Source of the DNA: Zygaena filipendulae
Taxonomy: Eukaryota > Arthropoda > Insecta > Lepidoptera > Zygaenidae
Length of the DNA: 64,000 nucleotides
Assembly: GCA_907165275.2 (NCBI GenBank)
Contig: OU015670.1
Location: 6,227,501-6,291,500 of the forward strand
Reading direction: 5' to 3'
A program made the translations under genes and the position numbers. The notes beneath the pieces were generated by a model that did not search any database, had not been told where the DNA came from, and was given only the letters and a program-made list of their open reading frames with translations. Below are positions 6,101 through 19,785 of the stretch, one piece after another. How positions within the stretch are numbered: the first letter of the stretch is position 1; each line of letters begins with the position of its first letter.

Positions 6101-9100
6101 TTATAACAAAAGGTTTTATTGAAAACTACTAAAAGAGGCCCTTTTTGGTACTTTTTGTTTAAAATTATTGGTATCACTTGTAAAAGCTGAATCAAAAGTT
6201 TTATTCTACGTATATATTTCATTTTTAATTAATTATTTTAGACGATATTTATAACGGGTGGTGCCTAGTTTAGCACTAGAAGACATTCTGATTATTTTCT
6301 TAGCGGGCGGCTCTAGTCTAGTTTCACTCGTGTAAAGTCTTCAAGGTTGTCTGTCTGTGTGGTATATCTCCCTACCTCCCTCCACCCACAGACGGCAACG
6401 AAGTGTTCAGCCTGCAGCCGTTCACCGCCCGCGACCTGATGCTGCGGCCGCTCGCCGACCGCGTGCTCGACCTGCCCCAGCTGCAGTACCTCTACCCGAG
6501 CGTGCCCAAGGACGACGTGTTCGCCAAGCACTACACCAAGCCCGGTGAGCGCAAGCACAGACACACACACACACATACACACATACACACACACACACGC
6601 ACGCACGCACGCACGCACGCACATGCACAAATACAGACACACGCATGTACCCACTCTCGCATGTACGTACACACATGCAGACACACAAACATACACACAT
6701 ACACACACGTACTCACTCACATTCTCTCTCTCTCTTTCTCTCTCTCTCTCACACACACAGACATTTAATTTGAAATTTCTTTTAGTTGAAAAATTTTATA
6801 CTATACTAGTAATACTCGTATACTATAAAATAAATTAATAATGTCTGGGCTATCGAGCTTCGCTCGTAACGCCATCTGTTGTTAAGTAGAAAAGCAGTAC
6901 CAAACACTCTTTTTTCATTGCCTGAAAACACGGATAAAACGAAGTTTTCCATAAATGAAACCGGGCTAGATTGATTAATCGCCTCCGAAACCCCCTGCAT
7001 ACTAAATTTCATGAAAATCGTTGGTGCCGTTTCAGATTATATACATATATATACTAGCTGTCCCGCGCGGTTTCACCCGCGATAATTTCGAAGTTCTCGC
7101 TGAACTGTTCCATACAAACTTTGCAACCTCTTTTCTTTTCATCTCTTTAGGGTTTAAATTTTCAATGCCTAAGTCATATATGTACAAAAAACACTCCCTC
7201 CAAGTTTCAGGTCTCTTCGATCAGCTGTTTCGACTGTGCGTTGATCCATCAGTCATTCAGGACAAAGGATTTTATAGGATATAGGATTTTATATGTATAG
7301 ATTTACATATACATACAACAATTGCTCGTTTAAAAGATAATACAGTCGTAATATACTTTCATGGGTTGAACAAACTTATTTATCTCTCTCTCTCTCTCTT
7401 ATATCCCCGTGCAGAGAACGAGATGCAGAAGAACGGTTACGTGAAGCCGGTGCTGGTGACGACGCTCCCGCCGTACATGTCGCCGTCGCCGTCGTACGCG
7501 CACTCGCCCGACTCGCAGCGGAACACGCCCAGCGTGCAGAGCAGGTAACGTGCCGTGTCGATACTACGGGCAGCCCGTACTACTGTGGCCGGGGTGGGAA
7601 AAACTTAATTATATATTTTAGTCCGTCGGTTAGATAATGGAAAAATAATAGCCACGTAAATTTTGCTACTAGCTGTTCCCCGCGGCTTCAGCCGCTTTAA
7701 TTTCGGCGGTCCCGCGGGTATTCCGAGATAAAAGTACTCTAGTGTAGTATGCAAAATTTAGTGTAATTTCAGAGTTACCTTGTGAAATCCGGGATAAAAA
7801 GTACCCTATATGTCCTCCTGAAAACGTGCATGCAAAATGTCATGATGATCAGTTGAGCCGTTAAGGCGTGAAAGCGTAACAAACAAACGATCTCTTTCGC
7901 ATTTATAATAGTCGCGTCAATGTTTAGGAGTGGGGGCTCGTAACGTTCGAATTAGGTACCTATAAACTGTAGCAAATTGTAACGTCACACGACATTCCTA
8001 CTCAATGTACCGCCGTTATTTTTTTTAATTAAATAAAAAAGGCAAAACTACGTGTCCATTGTCCAATATTTTTTATAAATCTACACGACGGACTAAAAAC
8101 TAGGCGAGCGACGGAATTTGAGTTTGGAAAAGTTGATATCCGACACACACAGTAGCAACAGCCTACGCCGCGTCGCTGTCACCTCTAGGCTCGCCGCTAC
8201 GTTGCGGCGGGGTGCGGGCGGGCTAAAAGTTGGTGGGGGGCGGAACGTATGTGTAATATAATATTCGACGTCATGATGTTTTGAACGAAGAGAACCATGG
8301 AAACTGCTCTTGATAATAGCACAGTTCAAACAAAATGATAAGGTCGACTTTTGCTTGTATGTACGGTATACGCACAGTTAAAATTCGACCTTATTATTTT
8401 AAATTTGCAGTTCGAATCGTTGAACTCGTTCGAGTATTACTTGCTTGGGTTTATGTTGGATCATGATATTCTAGTGCAAAGCGCCAAGTTCCACGTTTAA
8501 GGTTCACTTTGTATTTATCTGCATATTACTATGTATATTGTATATGCAATGAAAGATTTTATAAGTACACATGCAGTATTTTTTTAAAATGACACTATTG
8601 AATTTTTTTTGTTTATTTTATTTAATATTTTGTTTTTTTCCTTTTCCATTTTTAGGTACATGATCGATTTCTCTTGAAGATGTCATTGTATTTTTACGAT
8701 GTTTTTTAATAAGAGATTTATATTTTAAGATTTACTATTATTATCTATATTTACTTAGATTTTTTTAATAGTCACATCCTAAGTTTTATTAAATTAGTTT
8801 TGGTGGGTTATTTTCATATATTTTATTTCAAGATAAAATTGGCCAACAAATTTTTATTCGTATTATGTTTGCTTAAGTGCCTTTTTAGACCCAGTGATAA
8901 TTAATTTTATGGTATTGTAATGTATTGTAATTTAAATTTTTTATTTTTAAGTGACCTTTTTTCTATCATTGAAAATATAATATTTACCACGTTCGCTCAG
9001 TTTTCACGATGCAAGCTTTATGGCTTAGTGTGGGATCAAATAGATACGTGTTAAATATTATTATTAGATTTAATTTAAAATGTTTCCATGACAATAAAAC

Positions 9101-12100
9101 GCGTATAGGTAAGCTTTTTGCAATAAGAACTAAGTGCTTATTGAATAAGTAACGTGTTATATTAAAAAAAAAAATTAAATTAATCTAGTAATTATTTCTA
9201 GCTGTGGCACGACAATCCTGCAACTGTAAACAGGAGTTATTGGAGCGCACATAAACGAACATACAATAAAAATGGTTTTAATACTTGTTCCCAAATATTA
9301 TAAAATAATTGTTGTCTTTAAGAGAAAAAAAAAAATTGAATTTGTATTTATTTCAAGTAGCTATTATTATACTATCCAAAAATGAATTTAGATAGGTTAA
9401 ATGTTTAAAATTTAGATATTCGTATACAAGATGTTAATGTTACAAATAAAATAATTCGTTTGAGAGTTAAAATATACATGACTTAAAATTTGTATTTTTA
9501 CTTTGCGAAAGAGTATGCATATATGTATAACTTAATGGGTGTAAAAGTTAGTTTTAATTTAGATAGTACTTATAAAAAAATACAACAATACTTGTAACTT
9601 CGAAACATAATATTTAATAATTATTCGTCTTTTGGCTACATAAAACTCGTCTAGATAAACGACTCATTCGTCATTTACCTAATGAAATTAAAACTAAAAC
9701 TCGCAACTCAGTTCAAGTGAAATCTCTTTGCGCCAGAATCCTTTCGTTTATAAAAGTTTCATTTATTCGACTTTTAAATTTTAAGCTCCTAAGAAAATGT
9801 CACTAAAAAGCGTCTACGACACGTATTATTCCCATGGAGGGTTGCCAAACATGGCTTTTTACGAACGTATCCAGCAAAATATTTTCTCGTTCGGCCTGTC
9901 CAGCTTTTTTCAGGCTTTTGTCTGGCTGCCGCGCGAGTCGAAAGTACAGCCGTACAGCCGTACTTGCGCTCGACTTTCGACTACCCCTAGTGCTTGTTAC
10001 TTATGTGATGAATGAGGGCATAGTAAAATAATTAAATAAGTAATTGTTTTTTTAGCATGAAAGTAATAATTGTTCTTTTATCATAAAATAGTTCGGCTTA
10101 TAAAACATATGCCCGGATAAAACATATGTATGTCCGGCTTTAAAAAAGCTACGATTAGCTATTTAAAAAGGTATGTCCGGCCAAATTCAGCGCCGAGGCC
10201 GGCTTTTGTGGTTTTTTACCTGACCACCCTATTCCCATGTGAAGGACTAACTTGATACTGTCCTTCATATCTTCATTAGATTTTCATCGCATCATCGTAC
10301 GTTTAAAGAAGTGAAATAAGAAAAACCGGTAAATAGAATACCGTCTATGTCAAATTATCAAATAAATTACATACTGTAGTTTTTATTAAAAAAATGTGTA
10401 TAAATTCGAAAGTTGTTTACTGTAATAATCCTAATAAGGACTTAATGCTATAGTCGGGTTGTCTGGTTGATTATGTATATGAATGTCAGTTATTCGATGA
10501 AATAGGTGTTTTTGTGGAAAGAAAACGTCAGGAGAAATATTTTTAATGTTTGTATTACAAGTTTTCAGTATTATCTTTGTTAAGAGTTAGGCAAATATAA
10601 CATCGTGATAAATTACTCAAATAAATAAATAACTGCCAGTTAGTTTCTTTTCCATTTTGTTCGGACCAAAGCTTTCAATTAGGTACATTAAAACAAGCGG
10701 TTGGTAAAAAAATCTAGTGAAAAAATTTCACGTTACGGTGCAGGGTTCCAAACGAATTTAGTTTTAGTAGGTATTAAAAAAAGAAGTCTCGACTGAACAG
10801 TTATTATAATTAGATAAAAATCCAATACATTTGTCAATTATTATTATCAATGACTATACCTATCAAACTGAACCAAATCTTTATTTACAACTTTTCATTA
10901 TCAATAAAAAAATAATATTAAACAAAATTATTTAGAGTCGAGTTTTTTAGGGCTTAAAAGTTAAAAGCCATTATAATCTCAACTACTACTCTACTTTCTC
11001 ATGTTCCTAAAGTCAGTTCTATACCGAGATATTCAAATTTGAACTTTAGAGACGGAAGAAAGAGAACTGAAACAAAATAACTTTGTTCACTCCCTAACTC
11101 AGGCAACTGATTCTCAGAAAACAACCCACGTGGTTGGTTCGGGAGCAAATATCACTAAAAAAATAATATGTCACATTGGCAAAATAATTGCATGACCGCT
11201 ATAGAATGTCATCATAAAGAATGTCGTTGTTAGATATTTTATTAGTGTCTTGGTTTTAAGCGCTATTTTTTCGGTGATAAAATGTGTTATTAGATGAGAA
11301 ATATTTGATTGTAAATATCGGCACGATATTGTTAACAAAGGTTTTTGATCAAGATATTTTGTCAAAAACACTTACTATTGTTTGAAAAAAAAAACAATAA
11401 AAATATTCCATGATGCGAATGAGGACCAAACAAATTTTACTTCTCCTATTTAACCGACTTTTTATCTTAATTGTTTTTATAACCTCTAGGGTTGACTCAA
11501 TTTGAAATATCCTTTATTAAGAATATTAAATAATCTCAAAGTCTGATGAATTTTTTGCAAAGTTATCATTTAAGAATATAATTGTGTCGTATTTGGTTGA
11601 AGGTCACAGTAGTAAATTACGCCACCCGTTATACGAAAATCGTATTATCTTTTAAGATATTTCAACTATAAATGCTCTTGTTCAATAGTTAGCTGAATTC
11701 TATACCGTCCCGTTGAAAAAAAAAAAACAATAATATGTATTAAAAGTAAACCGCGAGAAGCGATTTTGTATATTAATTGTAAGAACTAATTAGATGATTA
11801 AATTATATCGTTGTGAGCTTAACTTTTTCCTACCCTTGGGTCCAGTTTATAGCATTTAGTTTATTTTATACAACTTTTAATTAATAATAATAATATAATC
11901 ATAAAAAATATCGTGAGAATTTAAAATGACTGTGTCCGTCATCTTAAAACCTTCTTAAACAAAATATGCTTGTTTTTTTTATACTTTTCCACATAATCAT
12001 AACGTACCTAGGTATTATAAGAACTTTTTGTCACAATTTTTTCTATTTTAATATTAAATAAATATACAACACAATTTTTTGAAACTGATGTGATTATTCC

Positions 12101-15100
12101 TAAGTATTGACTTTATGGTAATTTTAGAATTCGGTGCTTGTTTAGTTTTCGATATAATTTATTATGATAAAGGGCGTTCGGCAAAACGGACCGATACAAT
12201 TTTCTCGTTTGCTAATTTGCAACAACAGATCTTAAGCGTCACAGTGTTTTTTTAAATAGTCGAAATTGCGACTCAAATTGTTATGACTCTTTTTACTTTT
12301 CTACTGTATTTTTTTTTATTTAGTATTATATAACAACAACTGAAAGCTATGACGACTTAAGGGGCTATGTCGAAAAATAAATATGCGTCGTCGGGAAGAC
12401 ACTGGTATCTAAGCTAGGGAAAGTGATGTCTGCTTGTGCGCGTGACAAAAAAAAAAAACAAAAAGCAACTAAAATAGCTTTATCAATATTCAGAATGTAT
12501 CAATCCTTCTGTAATGAGCCTCGATTTTTTTTAAATCAGTGGTGCCCAACTGAAATTTGCTCCAAGGGCTATTTTGAAAACCCCGATACGCCACGCGGGC
12601 ACCGCCAAGTTGATAAAAAACATAAGTGATATAAAGGAAACTACATTATACAATTACACCACTTTTTATTTATTATGTTAATATGACACACTTACTACAC
12701 TTCAAACATACTATCTGTTATACAGGATATTTTGACGTGTTCCTTAACCGATTTTGTTTGTGGGCGCCTAGAAAACAGGCCGCGGGCTACCAGGCGCCCG
12801 CGAGCTACCGGTTGGGCATCACTGCTTTAAATCATCATTTAGAAGTTAAAAGTATTCTGCAATAAAAACTGAAGTTACTTTAGATTTTTTCATTTGATAT
12901 AATATAAGACTTAATTTTCACATATATCGCAAAATGTTAAGGTACTAGTCTAAGCAATTTATAATATCAGATTTATAAGAACCAAATTTTTCGCATAGCC
13001 TTTTGGGCCGTTACAAAATACGACAAGCAAAATCTTATATCAATTACTGTGATTTTAGTACTTATAGTTCTATGGGTGAAACAAGAATAACAATCGGTCC
13101 ATGCACCGAACGCCTGCGTGCTATTTACAAAAAGAGAGTTATAATATGAGCTTGAGTGAAGATCGGAAAGCACTGAAAGTATACTAGAATGGCTGCAATA
13201 AATATTATATTATTAGTATTGCTAGTAGGTACCCGCCTACTTCATTGCCAAAAATAAAATAATATGGCATATTTTTTTATTTCCTAGCAGTGGAAAAGTA
13301 ACGGTGGAATGTTTTACAGTATTCATCTCTATTATTTTGTATGTGGTTATGATTAGATTAAGTGTCTTAAAAGCGCATTTTGAATTATTCGACCTAGAAA
13401 TAATCCTAAAGAACGGAAAACAAATCGGCTGCTCCATTTTAAAACCCAGTAAGGAACATTTTTCTCAAAATCAGTTTTTTTTTATTTAAATTGACTTAAA
13501 ATTAAAGTGCCTACAAGATGTAAAGACATAAATCGCATTATCACACTAAACACCAAAAAAACACGCACCTCAATACCTAGTAAGTACACTTGATTTTCTT
13601 TTTTACCAATATGTAAACCTAGTAAATAACTTTGACCATTTTAAAACATAGTAAGTAGATGGACTTACTAGGATTTTAAAATGGTCAGTGTGCCTTACTA
13701 GTAGGAAATTTACGAACTATTAAAATTACCTACCGACAATAAATACCAAGTAAGAGGGGAAGGGATTAGTAAGGGGCATAAAACATGCAATAATATTCAA
13801 ATAAATTGAAATATTTATTCCTGAAAATATAGTTCAATTAATAATCTTCAAAATAAATATTAAATATTTTAAAAATATTCTAGTATCTTATCAGAGCAAA
13901 CTAAAATATGTTATTTCGCTCTCCTGTAAAATTTGCTGTACTGCACTTATTGGGTTTTAAAATGGAGCAGCCGAAATGGAGAAGATACTTATATTACGTG
14001 TTTGAATTACAATAACAGCTAAAACGATTGTTTAAATTGTTAATGAAAAATTCACCTTCGCATAAAATTTTAAAATAAACGTAGTTAGCGACAGTTATGT
14101 TGATAAATCGAAATTTATTATACAGGATGTCCCGTAAATCGACGTCAAGCCAGAATCGGGTGATAGTCATAACGCAAAAAATTATTTTTCAAATTTATAA
14201 AAATTTACACCCTGCGACGGTTCTGTAACTCCTGTTGCTATAAACCTTAACTTTATTTGCAATTTTCTTCTTATTGTGTAATCCTGATAGTGTTTCTGAA
14301 AACTACTGCTTAAAATTTAAGTTTTTGCCAATGAAGTTTTCAAAATTATTGCTTTCGTCAGTTTTTAATGACTGTCCTTTTTTTTAAATAGGTATATATA
14401 TTTTTATATTTTTCTGTTAACAGCTGCTATGACCTTAGCCTATCACGGTTCTGGCTTGACGTCGATTTACGGGACACCCGTATATATTGCGTGCGTCGTG
14501 TATTGTTGAATGTTTCACATTATCTCTGCTCACTTGTTTATAATGTAAAAATGGATGTGACTATTACGCAATTATTTTGTGTATTCGACCAAAAGGTGGC
14601 ATCATATTAAGCCATTGACGATCCATGCCCTCTGCCAAAATTACGAGAGCGCGGCTCATACCCGGCCGCGTGTTGACTTGTGTTCAATTTGACCTTTACC
14701 TACGCGACCCGAGTTAAAACTTAAAATTACGGAATATTTTTTTCGCCACATTGCGCCTATGGCGTCTCCTTGGTTATTAAACTCAAATAATATTAATGCA
14801 CAAATAATAAACAAAGACGAGAAATACCTAAATAGTCATTTTGGACTAGCCTATTATATAAGTACTTTATTTTCAGCGACAGCATAAAAAGTTCACAGCT
14901 ACGAATTATTTCGTAAAAACATTTATATGATTATTATTTTAGTTTTTTTTTTCAATGTCTCCCCTGCACTGATTAAAATGGTAAAATTTCGCGATTCAAT
15001 CTGGAAATATGCATTTATCAAGATTTCTTTATTATTCTTCGTTTATGTTGAAAAATCAAACAGATTTTTTACTACTACCTACATACCTACTTGTAGAAAA

Positions 15101-18100
15101 ACTGATTATTCTTCTGAGTTCACATGACGATATTAAATGTTATTATTATAAAATCAAAATGTCAATGTATTTTGATTGTTCCGAAGTGGCCTAAATAAAC
15201 TACGTTAAGAGTGAAAAACATTGGCAGCGGGTACAGATCGAGTCTTACGGGTGTTCGGCACTGCTCTAAAAAATAACTGATCAAATCGAGTTGTGAAGAT
15301 TTTAAAAATATTTGAAGAAAAAAATAACGCTCAGTTTGCGTTGAAAATTTGACTATAGTACTAAAGGGTCTTTCAATAAGGACGGGTCGATTTTGACATG
15401 AAATAAAAAAGGCCGTGTGTGAGATTTTAACGATTTTTTTTTTTATTTGAAAGAGCTATATATGCCATTATGTGTGGAAAATCACATCGTTTAAATGTCC
15501 GCCGCGGCTTCTCACGGTGGCACGAATTCGAGTTGTCCAATGTTCAACAACTCTGCCGCATAGTTCGGGTTGAATTTCAGCGATAGCCTGAGCTATGTTG
15601 ACTTTAAGGGCATCGGTCGATTGTGGCTTATTGGTATAGACCTGCGACTTAAGAAAACCCCACAAAAAAAAGTCTAAAGGTGATAAGTCGCAGGATCTCG
15701 GTGGCCAATTCACAATTCAATTTGAAGGACCACCTCGTCTGCCGTAAAATGGGCGCAATGCACGTAACGTTTGCACTAACGAACACTCATTTTGGTAATA
15801 CATTTTTAACATTTGGACGTGTTGCTCAACCGTGTAACTTGCCATGGTGATTTGGCATTACTAACTGAATAAAAAAATATAGGTTAGAAAGACGACGTTA
15901 AAACAACATGGCCGCCACAGGCTGCCAACATCGACCCGTCCCTATTGAAAGACCCTTTAGTATAGTATTATATTATCTGTGACTATAGTTTCAAGGGTAG
16001 GCGAGCATTGTGGCCGATTGTAGTAGTTTGTCAATTAGCTAATCCACGGCCGTAAGGGGCGCGCCTACCCTAGGGAAGTGCATTGTTGGTATACGCAGGT
16101 ATAGAAAGGTCATAAGTTTTATAACCCAGACATTTTATGCCGTCTTAAATTCAAAATTCTTAAATTCCATTAGTTTATAAGTGATGCACATGCAAATTGA
16201 CCAAAATTACTCCCAATTTCCAATCACACATTTTACCTCGTTCCAAAGATTTTTTTGTCATAGAAATATCCGCATCATTGATGTATTAAATACCATTTTT
16301 TTAACCGACTTCAAAAAGGAAGAGGTTATCAATTCGGATTTTTATATAAGTAGGTACATATTTTTTTATGTAAGTTCGGGATAAATATATAAAATATATA
16401 AATACTCCGTCATAAATAGACGGATTTGCAATAGTACATTGTTATCCTAGGGGTGAAAGTAACCCCTAGGTAGCGAGGGCGCCAATAGATCGAGGGACTA
16501 AATAAGTCTTTCTCCCCTAGGATAACAATGTACTATTTTTGTTCGAAAAAGATTTGTTCCGAAATGGTCCCATTTTTTCATAAAGATTTATGATGAGTTT
16601 CGGAGACAGACAACGGAACTCTTGAAGTCGGTTGAATTTTTTTACATCAATGATCCGCATTCGCACATGTTTGTCTGTTTGTCATTGATGAAACGAACGA
16701 GTTCCATACATTTTTTCAATGTAAAATGTGTCTAATTGGTAAACTCGACTTCGTTTTAGATGTGGTTATATAGCTAATAATTCAAGGGATCTCATTAAAA
16801 ATAGCAAAATCTGAAAAATGTGATTGACAAATTCTGCCAGTCTATCTGTATGTTTGTGTGCGCATCACGCGAGAACTGCTGAACGGAAACAAATGGGATT
16901 TTCACGAAATGCCTTCCTCGTAATTTAAGTTATAAAATAGGCATTATTTCACCGAAATCGGTTCATGAAGAGAGGTGTTATGGCAATTCTAGAGACGCAG
17001 CAGTGAAATAGTAGTAAAATAGTTCATTTTACATAATATATTTATGAGGCATTGTTCCCTAGCCTGGTATCAGATTTTGTCCAAAATTTTTAATACCTTT
17101 GAGATTTCCAACAATGCATCTTTTTTTTCGAATCTTTAAAATTAATGTAATTACATATTACGTATACATAAACATAACTTATACTTATGTCTACATATGT
17201 TAAGTGTTCGAATGGATGTATGTATGTATGTTTTGATGGATCAACTAATTATTAACTATATTATATGTAAATTTTAAAAATATATATCTGGTGTTATTTA
17301 TTTTGTTGGAAATAAAGAATCGTCTCATTTTTACTACAGATTTAGTCTTTAATGTTTTCGAACTGTTTTAATAATAATTCTACTAAATATAGTCTTGACT
17401 CTTGTTCTATGTTACCAATATTCAGAGACAATTCTTGGTTCTCAATAACCAATTACGTCCAGCGCGAAAATGCAACACAGACGGTCGTTCTAAATTTTTA
17501 TTTTTTTTATTTTACAAAACATTGTTCTACAAATGTAATACAAATATTAAAAATTGCGAGTTTTCATTTAAAATAATTTCGGGGATATTTTTGTATCTTT
17601 TTTGCCTGTATTTTTTTGTCTGTGCTGACATTTTGGCGATGTTATTTTTTTTTAATATTAGTGGAAATTTTTGTTTGTTTCATTTTGTTTTTGGTTTTGT
17701 AATTTTCATTTCCACTTCAAATTCTCACAACGACCGTCTTCATCAATATGAATTAACGTGTTGCATTTTCTCTTTTCTTTCCCGATCCCATGATGACGCT
17801 ACATCGACGACGCCGCAACGACATTTCGCCGGCAAACAACAAATTTACATATGCACACAACAAAACCGACATAACACCACCTAAAACCAACACAACACCA
17901 CCTAAAACCAACACAACATCATCTAAAACTAACACAACAACACCTAATACTCACACAAAAACACCTAATACTGACACAAAAATACCTTATATCTACACAA
18001 CAACATGTGAAACTTACACATCCCCTAAAACCAAAATAACAACACGTAATACTGACACAACAACACCTAAAACTGACATAAAAATACCTTACAACTACAC

Positions 18101-18407
18101 AACGACATGTAAAACTTACACAACATCACCTAAAAACGAAACAAAATCACCTAAAACCCAAACCAAAATATTAACACAAAACCCAAATATTAACACAACA
18201 CCTAAAACTGACACAAAAACACCCAATATCAACACAACAACACCTAAAATCAACCGTCAACCTAACAACAACAGTTACCTAAGCTCTTCGGCTCACACAA
18301 TGATGGACAGCAGCAGTTTCATGGACAGTGATCTATTTGAACAGATCCGCGCGTTCGAGCCCGAAGGACTGGAGTTTGACTTTTGCGGCAATGTAGCCAT
18401 GAAGTAA
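1..18407 (+). CDS. STAT: STAT transcription factor, 3' part of gene with two alternative C-termini
   Basis: Latent cytoplasmic transcription factor of the JAK/STAT pathway: phosphorylated on one tyrosine, it dimerises through SH2 and enters the nucleus. Exons seen: 1-147, 307-389, 1034-1103, 1608-1762, 2119-2242, 2813-2941, 3721-3827, 4398-4559, 5702-5826, 6392-6544, 7415-7544, then either 8656-8677 (short) or 18275-18407 (long). All have GT-AG borders and phases agree throughout. The window holds 468 residues (short) or 505 (long). In order they are: end of coiled coil, DNA-binding domain ([17 protein letters not shown]), linker ([12 protein letters not shown]), SH2 ([14 protein letters not shown]), phosphotyrosine site (NGYVKP), short transactivation tail. 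The N-terminal domain and most of the coiled coil lie upstream of the window. I recall that silkworm STAT has two isoforms differing by 44 versus 7 C-terminal residues; that is exactly the difference here. Family call is certain; isoform structure is inferred. Confidence 0.95.
307..389 (+). CDS. STAT: STAT exon, coiled coil to DNA-binding junction
   Basis: Acceptor CCCGTCAG before GTGACC, donor CG|GTGAGC. Encodes [20 protein letters not shown] then QVMKTNTR, the usual entry to the STAT DNA-binding domain. Ends with two bases of a split Arg codon. Confidence 0.92.
626..805 (-). repeat. Lepidopteran CCCGCGG element in STAT intron
   Basis: TCTATACTAATATTATAAAG at one end, TACCGCGGCCAGCTAGTTTG at the other. 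Confidence 0.8.
1034..1103 (+). CDS. STAT: STAT exon, start of DNA-binding domain
   Basis: Acceptor GTGACAG, donor TCG|GTGAGT. Encodes [20 protein letters not shown] then RVS, a strongly conserved STAT beta-barrel segment. A (CA)n tract starts about 20 bases past the donor. Confidence 0.95.
1124..1271 (+). repeat. (CA)n microsatellite in STAT intron
   Basis: Imperfect ACACAC/ACGCAC run starting about 20 bases after the donor at 1104. ORFs across it on both strands are artefacts of the repeat. Confidence 0.95.
1558..1600 (+). repeat. (ATT)n microsatellite
   Basis: TTATTATTATT tract serving as the T-rich region before the acceptor at 1607. Confidence 0.9.
1608..1762 (+). CDS. STAT: STAT exon, DNA-binding domain
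   Basis: Acceptor TATGCAG directly after an (ATT)n tract, donor CCG|GTGAGC. Encodes [15 protein letters not shown] followed by [20 protein letters not shown]. Ends in phase 2. Confidence 0.95.
2119..2242 (+). CDS. STAT: STAT exon, DNA-binding domain
   Basis: Acceptor ATTTCTAG, donor CAT|GTGAGT. Encodes [20 protein letters not shown] and then [21 protein letters not shown], with the basic loop typical of the STAT DNA-contact region. Confidence 0.95.
2401..2550 (+). mobile_element. MITE with CCCCTTAGCCAAGTTG inverted ends
   Basis: Left end CCCCTTAGCCAAGTTG and right end CAACTTGGCTAAGGGG are exact inverted copies. Same family as the element at 60374-60465. Confidence 0.8.
2590..2777 (-). repeat. 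Lepidopteran CCCGCGG element just upstream of a STAT exon
   Basis: TACACTAATATTATAAAGGG at one end, ACCGCGTGGGTCAGCTAGTA at the other; ends about 35 bases before the exon at 2813. Confidence 0.8.
2813..2941 (+). CDS. STAT: STAT exon, end of DNA-binding domain
   Basis: Acceptor GCGGCAG, donor AAG|GTATTG, 43 codons. Encodes [18 protein letters not shown] and then [11 protein letters not shown], the conserved SLPVVVI(V)HGNQ block. An interspersed element ends about 35 bases before the exon. Confidence 0.96.
3360..3665 (+). repeat. Lepidopteran CCCGCGG element in STAT intron
   Basis: CTAGCTGTGCCCCGCGGTTT start, then AAACAGAGCCTATATGTAGC. Confidence 0.75.
3721..3827 (+). CDS. STAT: STAT exon, linker domain start
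   Basis: Acceptor TGTGCAG after a (TG)n run, donor CAG|GTAGCT, ends in phase 2. Encodes [19 protein letters not shown] and then [15 protein letters not shown]. The next interspersed element starts only 13 bases after the donor. Confidence 0.93.
3841..4130 (+). repeat. Lepidopteran CCCGCGG element 13 bases after a STAT donor
   Basis: ACTAGCTGACCCCCGCGTTT start, TTCCCGCGGGAATTCCGAGA, with a second partial block at about 3990. Confidence 0.75.
4398..4559 (+). CDS. STAT: STAT exon, linker domain
   Basis: Acceptor CATGCAG, donor GG|GTGAGT. Encodes [22 protein letters not shown] text and [15 protein letters not shown], ending LWNDG. This is the highly conserved STAT linker (TFWEWF, WNDG). Confidence 0.96.
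4683..4860 (+). repeat. Left-arm fragment of the AACCGACTTCCAAAAA family
   Basis: AAACCGACTTCCAAAAACAC and GATCGGTTTGAATTCGGTGA match copies at 40880 and 58870. Confidence 0.8.
5014..5250 (+). mobile_element. Foldback MITE, near-palindromic, TTA target duplication
   Basis: CCGCCGCACTCAGAGTC at the left recurs inverted at the right and the two arms (about 115 bases each) match almost throughout. TTA flanks both sides, as for PIF/Harbinger elements. Lies in a STAT intron. Confidence 0.85.
5702..5826 (+). CDS. STAT: STAT exon, SH2 domain with phosphotyrosine-binding Arg
   Basis: Acceptor CTTTTCCAG, donor G|GTAAGC. Encodes [18 protein letters not shown] and then [19 protein letters not shown]. 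The Arg of FLLRFS (codon 5778-5780) is the invariant SH2 residue that binds phosphotyrosine. Confidence 0.97.
6392..6544 (+). CDS. STAT: STAT exon, SH2 domain end
   Basis: Acceptor CACCCACAG, donor CCCG|GTGAGC. Encodes [20 protein letters not shown], then [20 protein letters not shown] and [11 protein letters not shown], the C-terminal SH2 half (LADRI-type and YLYP motifs). A (CA)n/(CT)n tract starts about 10 bases after the donor. Confidence 0.96.
6555..6757 (+). repeat. (CA)n, (GCAC)n and (CT)n microsatellites in STAT intron
   Basis: ACACAC, then GCACGCAC, then a TCTCTC run, starting about 10 bases after the donor at 6545. Confidence 0.93.
7053..7295 (+). repeat. Diverged lepidopteran CCCGCGG element in STAT intron
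   Basis: ACTAGCTGTCCCGCGCGGTT start, GATAATTTCGAAGTTCTCG. Confidence 0.65.
7415..7544 (+). CDS. STAT: STAT exon with tyrosine phosphorylation site
   Basis: Acceptor CCGTGCAG, donor AGCAG|GTAACG. Encodes [20 protein letters not shown] and a Ser/Pro-rich run ([15 protein letters not shown]). Tyr in NGYVKP (codon 7438-7440) matches the single activating tyrosine of STATs, closest in context to the STAT5 type. Last exon shared by both isoforms; ends on two bases of a split codon. Confidence 0.95.
7671..7912 (+). repeat. Lepidopteran CCCGCGG element in STAT last intron
   Basis: ACTAGCTGTTCCCCGCGGCT start, AGTACCCTATATGTCC, GCATTTATAATAGT end. Confidence 0.8.
8656..8677 (+). CDS. STAT: STAT terminal exon, short isoform
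   Basis: Strong acceptor (T-rich tract, CCATTTTTAG). Completes the split codon as Arg and adds YMIDFS before TGA at 8675-8677, so the short isoform has 7 unique residues. The 3' UTR follows; AATAAA signals occur at 9093-9098 and 9265-9270. Confidence 0.8.
9837..10231 (+). mobile_element. hAT-type non-autonomous element
   Basis: Flanked by the 8-base direct repeat TTCCCATG (9829-9836 and 10232-10239). Ends GAGGGTTGCC and inverted TAGGGTGGTC. Lies in the long-isoform STAT intron. Confidence 0.7.
10240..12528. other. AT-rich STAT-L intron sequence, no feature seen
   Basis: Only short chance ORFs; no repeat structure recognised by eye. Confidence 0.5.
12537..12824 (+). mobile_element. hAT-type non-autonomous element
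   Basis: Ends CAGTGGTGCCCAAC and inverted CAGTGATGCCCAAC. Flanks TTTTAAAT and CTTTAAAT agree at 7 of 8 bases, as expected for an old 8-base hAT target duplication. Confidence 0.75.
13426..13973 (+). mobile_element. MITE with 28-base inverted ends
   Basis: CGGCTGCTCCATTTTAAAAC at the left is repeated inverted at the right. A second inverted pair (CCATTTTAAAACATAGTAAG and its near-complement) lies inside near 13640-13685. Confidence 0.75.
14123..14480 (+). mobile_element. Tc1/mariner-type MITE
   Basis: TGTCCCGTAAATCGACGTCA occurs at the left and inverted at the right; TA flanks both ends. About 358 bases with no coding content. Confidence 0.8.
15361..15960 (-). mobile_element. Deleted Tc1/mariner-superfamily transposon with transposase remnant
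   Basis: Ends CTAAAGGGTCTTTCAATA are inverted copies. A - strand ORF (15713-15468, 81 residues) starts [20 protein letters not shown] and includes [16 protein letters not shown], the C-terminal DDE region of IS630/Tc1/mariner transposases including the D of the SPLDF block. The rest of the transposase is missing. Both flanks read TATAGTA. Confidence 0.88.
15468..15713 (-). pseudogene. Transposase C-terminal fragment
   Basis: 81 residues of a usual ~340-residue transposase, with no start of its own. Contains [17 protein letters not shown] and ends [10 protein letters not shown]. Non-functional remnant inside the 15361-15960 element. Confidence 0.85.
16303..16645 (+). mobile_element. Element with AACCGACTTCAA ends carrying a nested MITE
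   Basis: AACCGACTTCAAAAAGGAAG at the left and CTTGAAGTCGGTT at the right are inverted. The palindromic MITE at 16430-16537 sits inside. Confidence 0.55.
16430..16537 (+). mobile_element. Short palindromic MITE
   Basis: AATAGTACATTGTTATCCTA at the left and its exact complement at the right. A diverged relative lies at 21808-21947. Confidence 0.8.
17662..18274 (+). promoter_or_regulatory. AG exclusion zone and candidate distant branch point before STAT long-isoform exon
   Basis: From the AG at 17660-17661 to the acceptor AG at 18273-18274 there is no AG on the sense strand, although about 39 G residues occur in this A-rich stretch. TTAAC at 17753-17757 resembles a branch point and is followed by a pyrimidine tract at about 17764-17783. 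Scanning from there, the first AG is the STAT acceptor. Known splicing logic: an AG-free gap marks use of a remote branch point. A closer CTAAC at 18262-18266 is a competing candidate. Confidence 0.6.
17860..18256 (+). repeat. 21-bp AG-free minisatellite
   Basis: Units like CACCTAAAACTGACACAACA recur with 21-base spacing (unit marks at 17881, 17902, 17923, 17944, 17965, 17986, 18007, then 18025, 18046, 18067, 18088, 18109, 18130, 18151, 18202, 18223, 18244). Because 21 is a multiple of 3 one frame stays open (TPKTNTT-like heptads) and joins the STAT tail in frame. With no internal AG no exon can begin inside it, so I regard it as intronic. Confidence 0.85.
18275..18407 (+). CDS. STAT: STAT terminal exon, long isoform transactivation tail
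   Basis: Acceptor CAACAACAG; the first base completes the codon left at 7544 as Ser. The exon encodes 44 unique residues beginning [15 protein letters not shown] and ending [11 protein letters not shown], then TAA. The acidic, hydrophobic [20 protein letters not shown] stretch looks like a transactivation motif. Phase fits exactly. The acceptor has almost no pyrimidine tract next to it; a candidate one lies about 500 bases upstream (see regulatory entry). AATAAA at 19274-19279 could end the transcript. Confidence 0.78.
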
Positions 18408-18599
18408 TCGAGGTAAGAGCTCGTACGCCAGTACAAAGTCACGGGACCAATTTTTTTTTTTTTTTTTTTATTATTATTTTTTTTTTTTTATTTACTTCAC
18501 AACACACTGATCTACTTGATCCCACACTAAGCTATAAGCTTGTGTCGTGGAAACCAAGCAAACGTGGTATATACTACACATATTATTACATATATATTA

Positions 18600-18748
18600 T
18601 ACTATAGATATATATATATATACACACCCAGACTGGAAAATGGAACCCTGTGTTCATCACACAAAGTCCACCCCCACCGGGAATCGAACCCGGAACCTCT
18701 TGATTAGCGGGCAGGCATGGTGACCATTGCGCCAATCGGGTCGTCAAT
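18600..18748 (-). repeat. tRNA-derived SINE
   Basis: On the - strand: A-box-like TTGGCGCAATGGTCACC, B box GGTTCGATTCC, then TGTGATGAACAC and CCAGTCTGGGTGTG with a (TA)n tail. Related copies at 33101-33234 and 40073-40200. Confidence 0.75.
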
Positions 18749-18814
18749 TATATAAAGTATTTGTTCCCCGCCGTTTCACCCGCGTTAATTTCGGAATTCA
18801 CACCCAATCTATAC

Positions 18815-19125
18815 TTCTATACTAATAATATAAAGAGGTAGTTTGTGTTTGTGACGTTGCGTTGTAGGGTAATCCCTAGATCTACTAGAACGATTTTGTA
18901 AATACCTTCACTTATAGGAAACCACAGTGATCCTTAATTGACATAGGGCACTTTTTAGCCCGGAATTCCCGCGGGAACTCCCGGAGTTTGTGAGGTTGTA
19001 ATCTCTGGATCTACTTCAACCGATTTTGAAAATTCTTTCACATATAGGAAGCTACAGTGATTTTGAGTGACATAGGGTACTTTTTATCCATAAATTCCCG
19101 CGGGAACTCCGAAAATATAGTTCCG
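18815..19125 (-). repeat. Two tandem partial copies of the lepidopteran CCCGCGG element
   Basis: Starts TCTATACTAATAATATAAAG and carries two blocks each ending TCCCGCGGGAACTCC, so two fragments head to tail. Confidence 0.65.
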
Positions 19126-19785
19126 ATGGTATATTTTTATCATAGTTTTTAAGTGTACCTTCGTTTACGTTTTTCGGTTAACCTATTTTGTACAATTAAC
19201 AGATAGACATAATAATAATTATTTATTATTATACATATATTTTGATTATCATTTCCAGATTGGAGGGAGTCAAAATAAAGCTACAATTATTATTGCATCA
19301 GATTTTAATTTTATAAATTCATTATATGTATCATTTTATTGATTAGGTTTTATTTTTTCTATCAATATCAACTTTTTGGGGCGCCCAGATATAGATACTA
19401 TTTTCGATTGTGCCATAAATCATAGTTTTTAATTTTGTTTTTAAAATCTGAACAAACTGCACATGGCAATAAAACTAGTTTCTAATTACAAACTAATTAC
19501 GTACCTATATCTAAATATTTCTATTAAGTCATGCAATAATTATTACGTAAATTGCTATAGAAGTGCCATTTAAAAAAAATATTGTGTTACCTTACCAGTT
19601 TATATCGTTTTTATCACAGAAGAAAATGGGGCACAGAACGACAGTGAGTGTAAGAAGAGTAATGTTTTTTTTTTAAATCGCGCTAAAGGGTACGTCGTAT
19701 GTGGAGGGTATCTGGGGGTAATTTCGTCAATTATGGATATCTCCCTCTATGATCTAAAGAAATCTAAAAATATTAATGGTCATAG

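Follow-up and report, generated by a model that had tools for sequence, protein, structure and literature searches.

The 64,000 nucleotides of Zygaena filipendulae DNA analysed here (contig OU015670.1, positions 6,227,501 to 6,291,500; hereafter the window) contain on the + strand the 3' half of a lepidopteran STAT gene, recognised by the Pfam domains STAT_bind, STAT_linker and SH2. Exons were placed by homology and by their GT/AG boundaries. The last exon common to all isoforms was located at 7415..7544 (+ strand, as all features below), followed by the donor AG|GTAACG at 7545. This donor is in phase with three acceptors, at 8655, 9201 and 18274. The acceptor at 8655 (AG 8654-55) is a textbook site with a strong tract and opens the short-form exon, the coding part of which (8656..8677) produces the end SVQS-RYMIDFS*. 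Acceptor 9201 opens a second short-form exon with the coding part (S)CGTTILQL* at 9202..9229. The third acceptor (AG 18273..18274) leads to the exon of the long isoform, STAT-L, and adds a tail of 44 residues beginning with SYLSSS, joined after SVQS at a conserved junction. Its phase and tail match the orthologues, which supports the preliminary description of this DNA, where the exon had been assigned to the long isoform of STAT. The tails obtained via 8655 and 18274 equal in length the printed ends of the two silkworm splice forms, BmSTAT-S with 7 and BmSTAT-L with 44 amino acids (PMC11537930). Retention of the intron after 7544 would give an immediate end (SVQSR*), since the donor reads AGGTAA.

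The junction was compared among the first 82 of 120 relatives listed, out of 1435 in all; the entries are clusters, with several per species. The long-form tail was present in 58 of these 82, and 56 of the 58 long-form models listed start with S-Y or S-C right after the common part. The other two are P0068, which starts with S-D, and P0078 from Tuta absoluta, which displays an insert. Short ends in the same 82 entries were of the RYMIDF type (14), TILQL (4) or other (6, including flea P0079 and beetle P0081). Conservation of the tail junction in the listed orthologues implies that acceptor 18274 is orthologous and that the region 17662-18272 is the end of an intron; by homology, this region is the 3' end of the 10.7-kb intron preceding the STAT long-isoform exon. 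The STAT-L exon (18275..18412) would measure 138 nt with AG|GTAAGAG at 18413 as its donor. This donor lies after the stop codon TAA (18405-07), and AGGTAAGA is found twice in the window against 1.9 expected occurrences. With this donor, the STAT-L exon is probably internal, with 138 nt, and accessible to exon definition. About 80 nt past the donor, a dispersed repeat was detected (approximately 18494-18751), with at least 39 further copies, 94-100% identical and about 250-310 nt long. By eye it shows a tRNA-like T-arm on the - strand and is SINE-like, and ARAGORN calls no tRNA in it.

Between the AG at 17660-61 and the acceptor AG at 18273-74, not a single AG occurs over 611 nt (17662..18272). 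The zone is composed of A265 C175 G39 T132 (43% A), and all 39 G are preceded by T (19), C (17) or G (3), none by A. The coordinates of this stretch given in the preliminary description were all confirmed, as were those of the motifs TTAAC (17753-57) and CTAAC (18262-66) discussed below. The zone is the longest AG gap on the + strand of the window (next, 239 nt) and exceeds any on the - strand (194 nt). Before the acceptors of the STAT gene, 19 in all, the next-longest AG-free stretch measures 109 nt. AG is present upstream of the zone, if somewhat low nearby, with densities per 100 nt of 2.2 in the 500 nt before it, 3.4 in the 1000 nt before it and 4.4 in the intron up to the zone. A search of 16500-19500 revealed no known RNA family at gathering cut-offs.

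The depletion was evaluated against shuffled sequences and against the genome. Composition-matched (mononucleotide) shuffles of the zone gave 16.9 expected AG, with an exact P(0) of 9e-11, which confirmed the avoidance of AG. As control, twenty 10-kb stretches of the same genome were taken at preset positions and read on both strands (400 kb strand-bases); the control windows overlap and were drawn from these 200 kb and from the remainder of the window. Two longer AG-free gaps were found in this control (1159 and 1039 nt), both of them TTCTA/TTCTG simple repeats. The long AG-free runs of the control are also devoid of GA, whereas the zone contains 17 GA and no AG. The GA count was therefore used as an internal control, the AG/GA ratio in the genome sample being 0.987. 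Among overlapping 611-nt control windows, none of the 19,826 with at least 10 GA was AG-free, against 39 of the 78 with fewer than 10.

Parts of the zone were evaluated in the same way. AG-free windows numbered 0 of 7,357 for the stretch of 516 nt that follows TTAAC (GA 14-20) and 47 of 22,594 for the 105 nt that separate TTAAC from the repeat array described below (GA 6-12). The 200 nt before the array gave P(0)=1.8e-4 by shuffling, and were equalled by 0 of 30,084 GA-matched windows (GA 9-15) and by 2 of 829 windows when these were matched more loosely, on their A and G content. For the array alone, with the observed substitutions placed at random, P(0) was 0.0024 if the substitutions of every copy are taken as independent and 0.063 when each site and state is counted once. 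Since its unit has no AG, the array is weaker evidence of AG avoidance. Among 411-nt genome windows, 36 had G<=25 and A>=150; none of these was AG-free, yet the lowest of them hold a single AG. The absence of AG in the zone is not explained by composition. The length of the zone by itself is not exceptional, and the use of that word in the preliminary description was too strong in view of the two longer genomic gaps and of published zones, 590 nt long for Fugu PTB exon 11 and 1126 nt long for human PTP sigma (PMC1431707).

The array, identified by repeat analysis and genome matches, is a degenerate 21-bp (42/102-bp) A/C-rich minisatellite without AG, located at 17862..18249. A genome repeat search, which passes over simple repeats and very common words, returned the locus itself and one match of 70% over about 160 nt on C12. 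With these matches alone, the idea of a dispersed repeat was rejected. The C12 match (near 9536984) is a Thr/Pro-rich coding repeat that is AG-free over 307 nt with 5 GA, which indicates that codon choice can yield AG-free DNA with some GA; by eye, its reading frame with the long Thr/Pro repeat is mucin-like. At the STAT locus, the frame of the STAT-L exon is open from 17757 to 18407 (216 codons) and reads as a Thr/Pro/Lys/Asn repeat, while the other two frames contain many stops. Neither this open frame nor the competing short-form acceptors had been pointed out in the preliminary description. Folding of the zone was no better than that of shuffled sequences (z of -0.50 with 20 shuffles and -1.43 with 100), and 90 of 100 shuffled arrays paired at least as well with the GU-rich start of the zone. 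A pairing that loops out the array was rejected on these grounds, and with weak structure and no special pairing, no fold was found that shortens the distance from the proposed branch to the acceptor.

Acceptor 18274 was compared with the 18 other acceptors of the STAT gene. It shows the lowest T content of all 19 over 40 nt (0.10; next 0.23) and a tied lowest one over 20 nt (0.10); the tied acceptor, some 58 nt beyond the left edge of the window, carries TACTGAC at -30. The pyrimidine share of 18274 is 0.45 over 20 nt, the second lowest of 19, and again 0.45 over 40 nt, the fifth lowest. The earlier statement that this site has almost no adjacent pyrimidines thus holds for U and to a lesser degree for C+U, for which 4 of the 18 others are lower over 40 nt. 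Its longest pyrimidine run is 3, and 6 of the 18 others have 3 or less. The best branch score at -20 to -60, calculated with weights chosen by the analyst, is 9.0 for 18274 and 8.5-11.7 for the others, one of which is lower and one equal. The 11-mer CCGTCAACCTA (18254-18264) lies just upstream of two STAT acceptors and is absent from the 400 kb of control strand-bases; its presence at both may be due to chance.

A candidate distant branch motif, TTAAC (17753..17757), would place the branch A at 17756 and the G of the acceptor 518 nt downstream of it. It is followed by an uninterrupted run of 18 pyrimidines (17766..17783). Motif and run lie 95 nt into the zone, toward its upstream side, as had been described, and the run proved to be the longest of the intron. 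The intron (7545-18274) contains 11 pyrimidine runs of at least 10 nt; the next AG is 489 nt away from this one, and within 0-73 nt of the other ten. In the genome, a run of at least 18 occurs once per 25 kb of strand-bases, yTnAy followed by a run of at least 14 once per 11.4 kb, and with at least 18 once per 80 kb, the thresholds having been set after the candidate had been seen. Directly behind the tract, a GC-rich stretch was observed (17783-17833; 0.61 against 0.32 in the intron), in which splicing enhancers could be located.

The favoured reading, with a probability of roughly 0.55, is that the branch point lies at or near 17756, about 518 nt upstream, and that it is followed by an AG search of some 500 nt through the AG-free minisatellite. 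U2AF and U2 snRNP would assemble on TTAAC and the 18-nt run, and the first step of splicing would take place there without an AG. In the second step, a 5' to 3' search would extend over about 500 nt of mostly weakly structured A/C-rich repeat, and the first AG met, 18273-74, would be used. Any intervening AG would become a splice site and lead to inserted or frameshifted sequence, and such harm is proposed to have purged AG from the zone. An array with an AG-less unit could be accommodated in this search zone, and the donor GTAAGAG at 18413 would help exon definition. As 18274 competes with the strong acceptor 8655, the zone could set the ratio between STAT-L and STAT-S.

The distant branch is favoured for several reasons. 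AG is absent against 17 GA, and the 200 nt of unique sequence that precede the array share in the exclusion. A yTnAy motif is followed by the longest pyrimidine run of the intron, and this run by the long AG-free interval. Finally, 18274 has the least T of the 19 acceptors and a low score for nearby branch points. The three acceptors that share donor 7544 also fit the printed link between long AG exclusion zones and alternative splicing (PMC1431707). An additional idea, that an AG just after the tract had been lost, was dropped by reasoning alone, as the phase of donor 7544 misfits an acceptor located directly there.

The main alternative, considered less probable, is that the branch point is located within the array or close to the exon. 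Candidates are TATTAAC at -81 and -100, AACTGAC at -63 and ACCTAAA at -27. In such a case, the repeats would provide redundant motifs, the strong donor would aid exon definition and the AG-less unit would make the zone long. The abundance of branch-like motifs in the array, with 14 yTnAy (9.1 expected) and 7 CTRAY (1.3 expected), which are repeat copies and so not independent, speaks for it and against the distant branch, and so do the weak tracts that are common among the STAT acceptors. A precedent has been reported, a 369-nt zone that derives from an AG-less repeat and has a branch candidate at -17 (PMC1431707), and with distinct events counted the probability of an AG-free array rises to 0.063. 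The distant branch, moreover, does not need the 95 nt upstream of TTAAC to be AG-free, which they are. However, none of the candidate sites in the array or near the exon is accompanied by a pyrimidine tract; the 25 nt downstream of the array sites have a pyrimidine share of 0.32-0.52 and a T content of 0.04-0.28. Nor would a branch there account for the intron's strongest tract or for the lack of AG in the 200 nt that precede the array. A view on the origin of the array, extending the distant branch, is offered tentatively and is rather unlikely to hold: the minisatellite would have been born locally and grown between branch and acceptor, tolerated only because its unit has no AG, so that the search became a slide of more than 500 nt and the copy number tunes the STAT-L/STAT-S ratio.

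It is highly improbable that the array is, or once was, coding as part of an extended Thr/Pro/Lys/Asn-rich STAT-L exon and lacks AG through its codon make-up. The frame of the exon is indeed open from 17757 to the stop, the sole other genomic match is the AG-free coding repeat on C12, and the Tuta absoluta gene model P0078 carries a Thr/Asn/Gln/His-rich insert at the same junction, just before the long-form tail. Yet the open frame holds no AG that could serve as acceptor and is closed upstream by TAA at 17754-56. The insert is absent from 57 of the 58 long-form models among those listed, divergence among 14 repeat units is equal across codon positions (0.25/0.25/0.24), and a Pfam search of the frame gave no match. 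The Tuta absoluta insert may indicate that A/C-rich DNA precedes this exon in a second moth family, with an AG some 90 nt upstream. Barely credible, finally, is a branch at CTAAC (18262..18266) adjoining the exon, despite its perfect match to yTnAy. Its A (18265) is only 8-9 nt from the AG and thus probably too close, at or under the distance for which bypass of an AG is possible, given as below about 8-12 nt (PMC7969005) or below 12-15 nt (PMC1431707) from the branch. With the branch so close, the AG at 18282-83 would be favoured, whereas the S-Y or S-C start of the 56 listed tails matches 18274 and not 18283.

If the branch is at 17756, its distance of 518 nt, in an insect gene, exceeds the 100-400 nt of the mapped cases in PMC1431707, and the intron would offer a natural substrate for studying over what distance, and across what kind of sequence, an AG can be sought in the second step of splicing. 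It would also provide a concrete cis-element for the choice between STAT-S and STAT-L, for which no mechanism is described in the literature searched, including the excerpts of PMC11537930. The locus further suggests that splicing may act as a filter on repeat arrays, where AG-free units alone survive in such a place. Should the copy-number reading be true, the length of the array would work as a dial for the immune signalling of an insect.

Several exons with distant branch points have been described, namely PTBP1 exon 11, PTBP2, GABBR1 exon 23 and alpha-tropomyosin (Gooding et al., 2006; PMC1431707). The STAT-L exon resembles them in a zone that reaches the exon, in a branch motif and tract toward the 5' side of the zone and in alternative splicing; it differs by its occurrence in an insect gene and by a zone that consists mostly of a degenerate minisatellite. 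Against the 100-400 nt mapped there, 566 nt were predicted for Fugu PTB exon 11, next to the 518 nt predicted here. As for insects, the Drosophila branch sites named in excerpts of PMC8559932 lie at -16 to -54, and among the titles and abstracts surveyed, none reported a branch point farther than 400 nt from an insect exon. For Bombyx mori, BmSTAT-S and BmSTAT-L derive from the same gene, with the corresponding 7- and 44-residue tails, and the excerpts of PMC11537930 mention neither a branch point nor the end of the intron. OGDH exon 4b is similar in that an AG exclusion zone separates distant branch points from an alternative exon. In OGDH, 25-41 nt separate the upstream donor from the branch points, and the gap is occupied by a long pyrimidine tract (PMC7969005), whereas STAT-L has its donor at a distance of 10 kb and an A/C-rich gap. 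As in IDB1079466.8106, the zone is long because of a repeat without AG. That intron has a good branch motif at -17 and widely spaced upstream AGs (PMC1431707), while STAT-L has no tract-supported motif near the exon and its unique flank is AG-free as well. Exons with an AG exclusion zone are known from vertebrates, and the form displayed by STAT-L, in an insect and filled by an array, is an unusual one.
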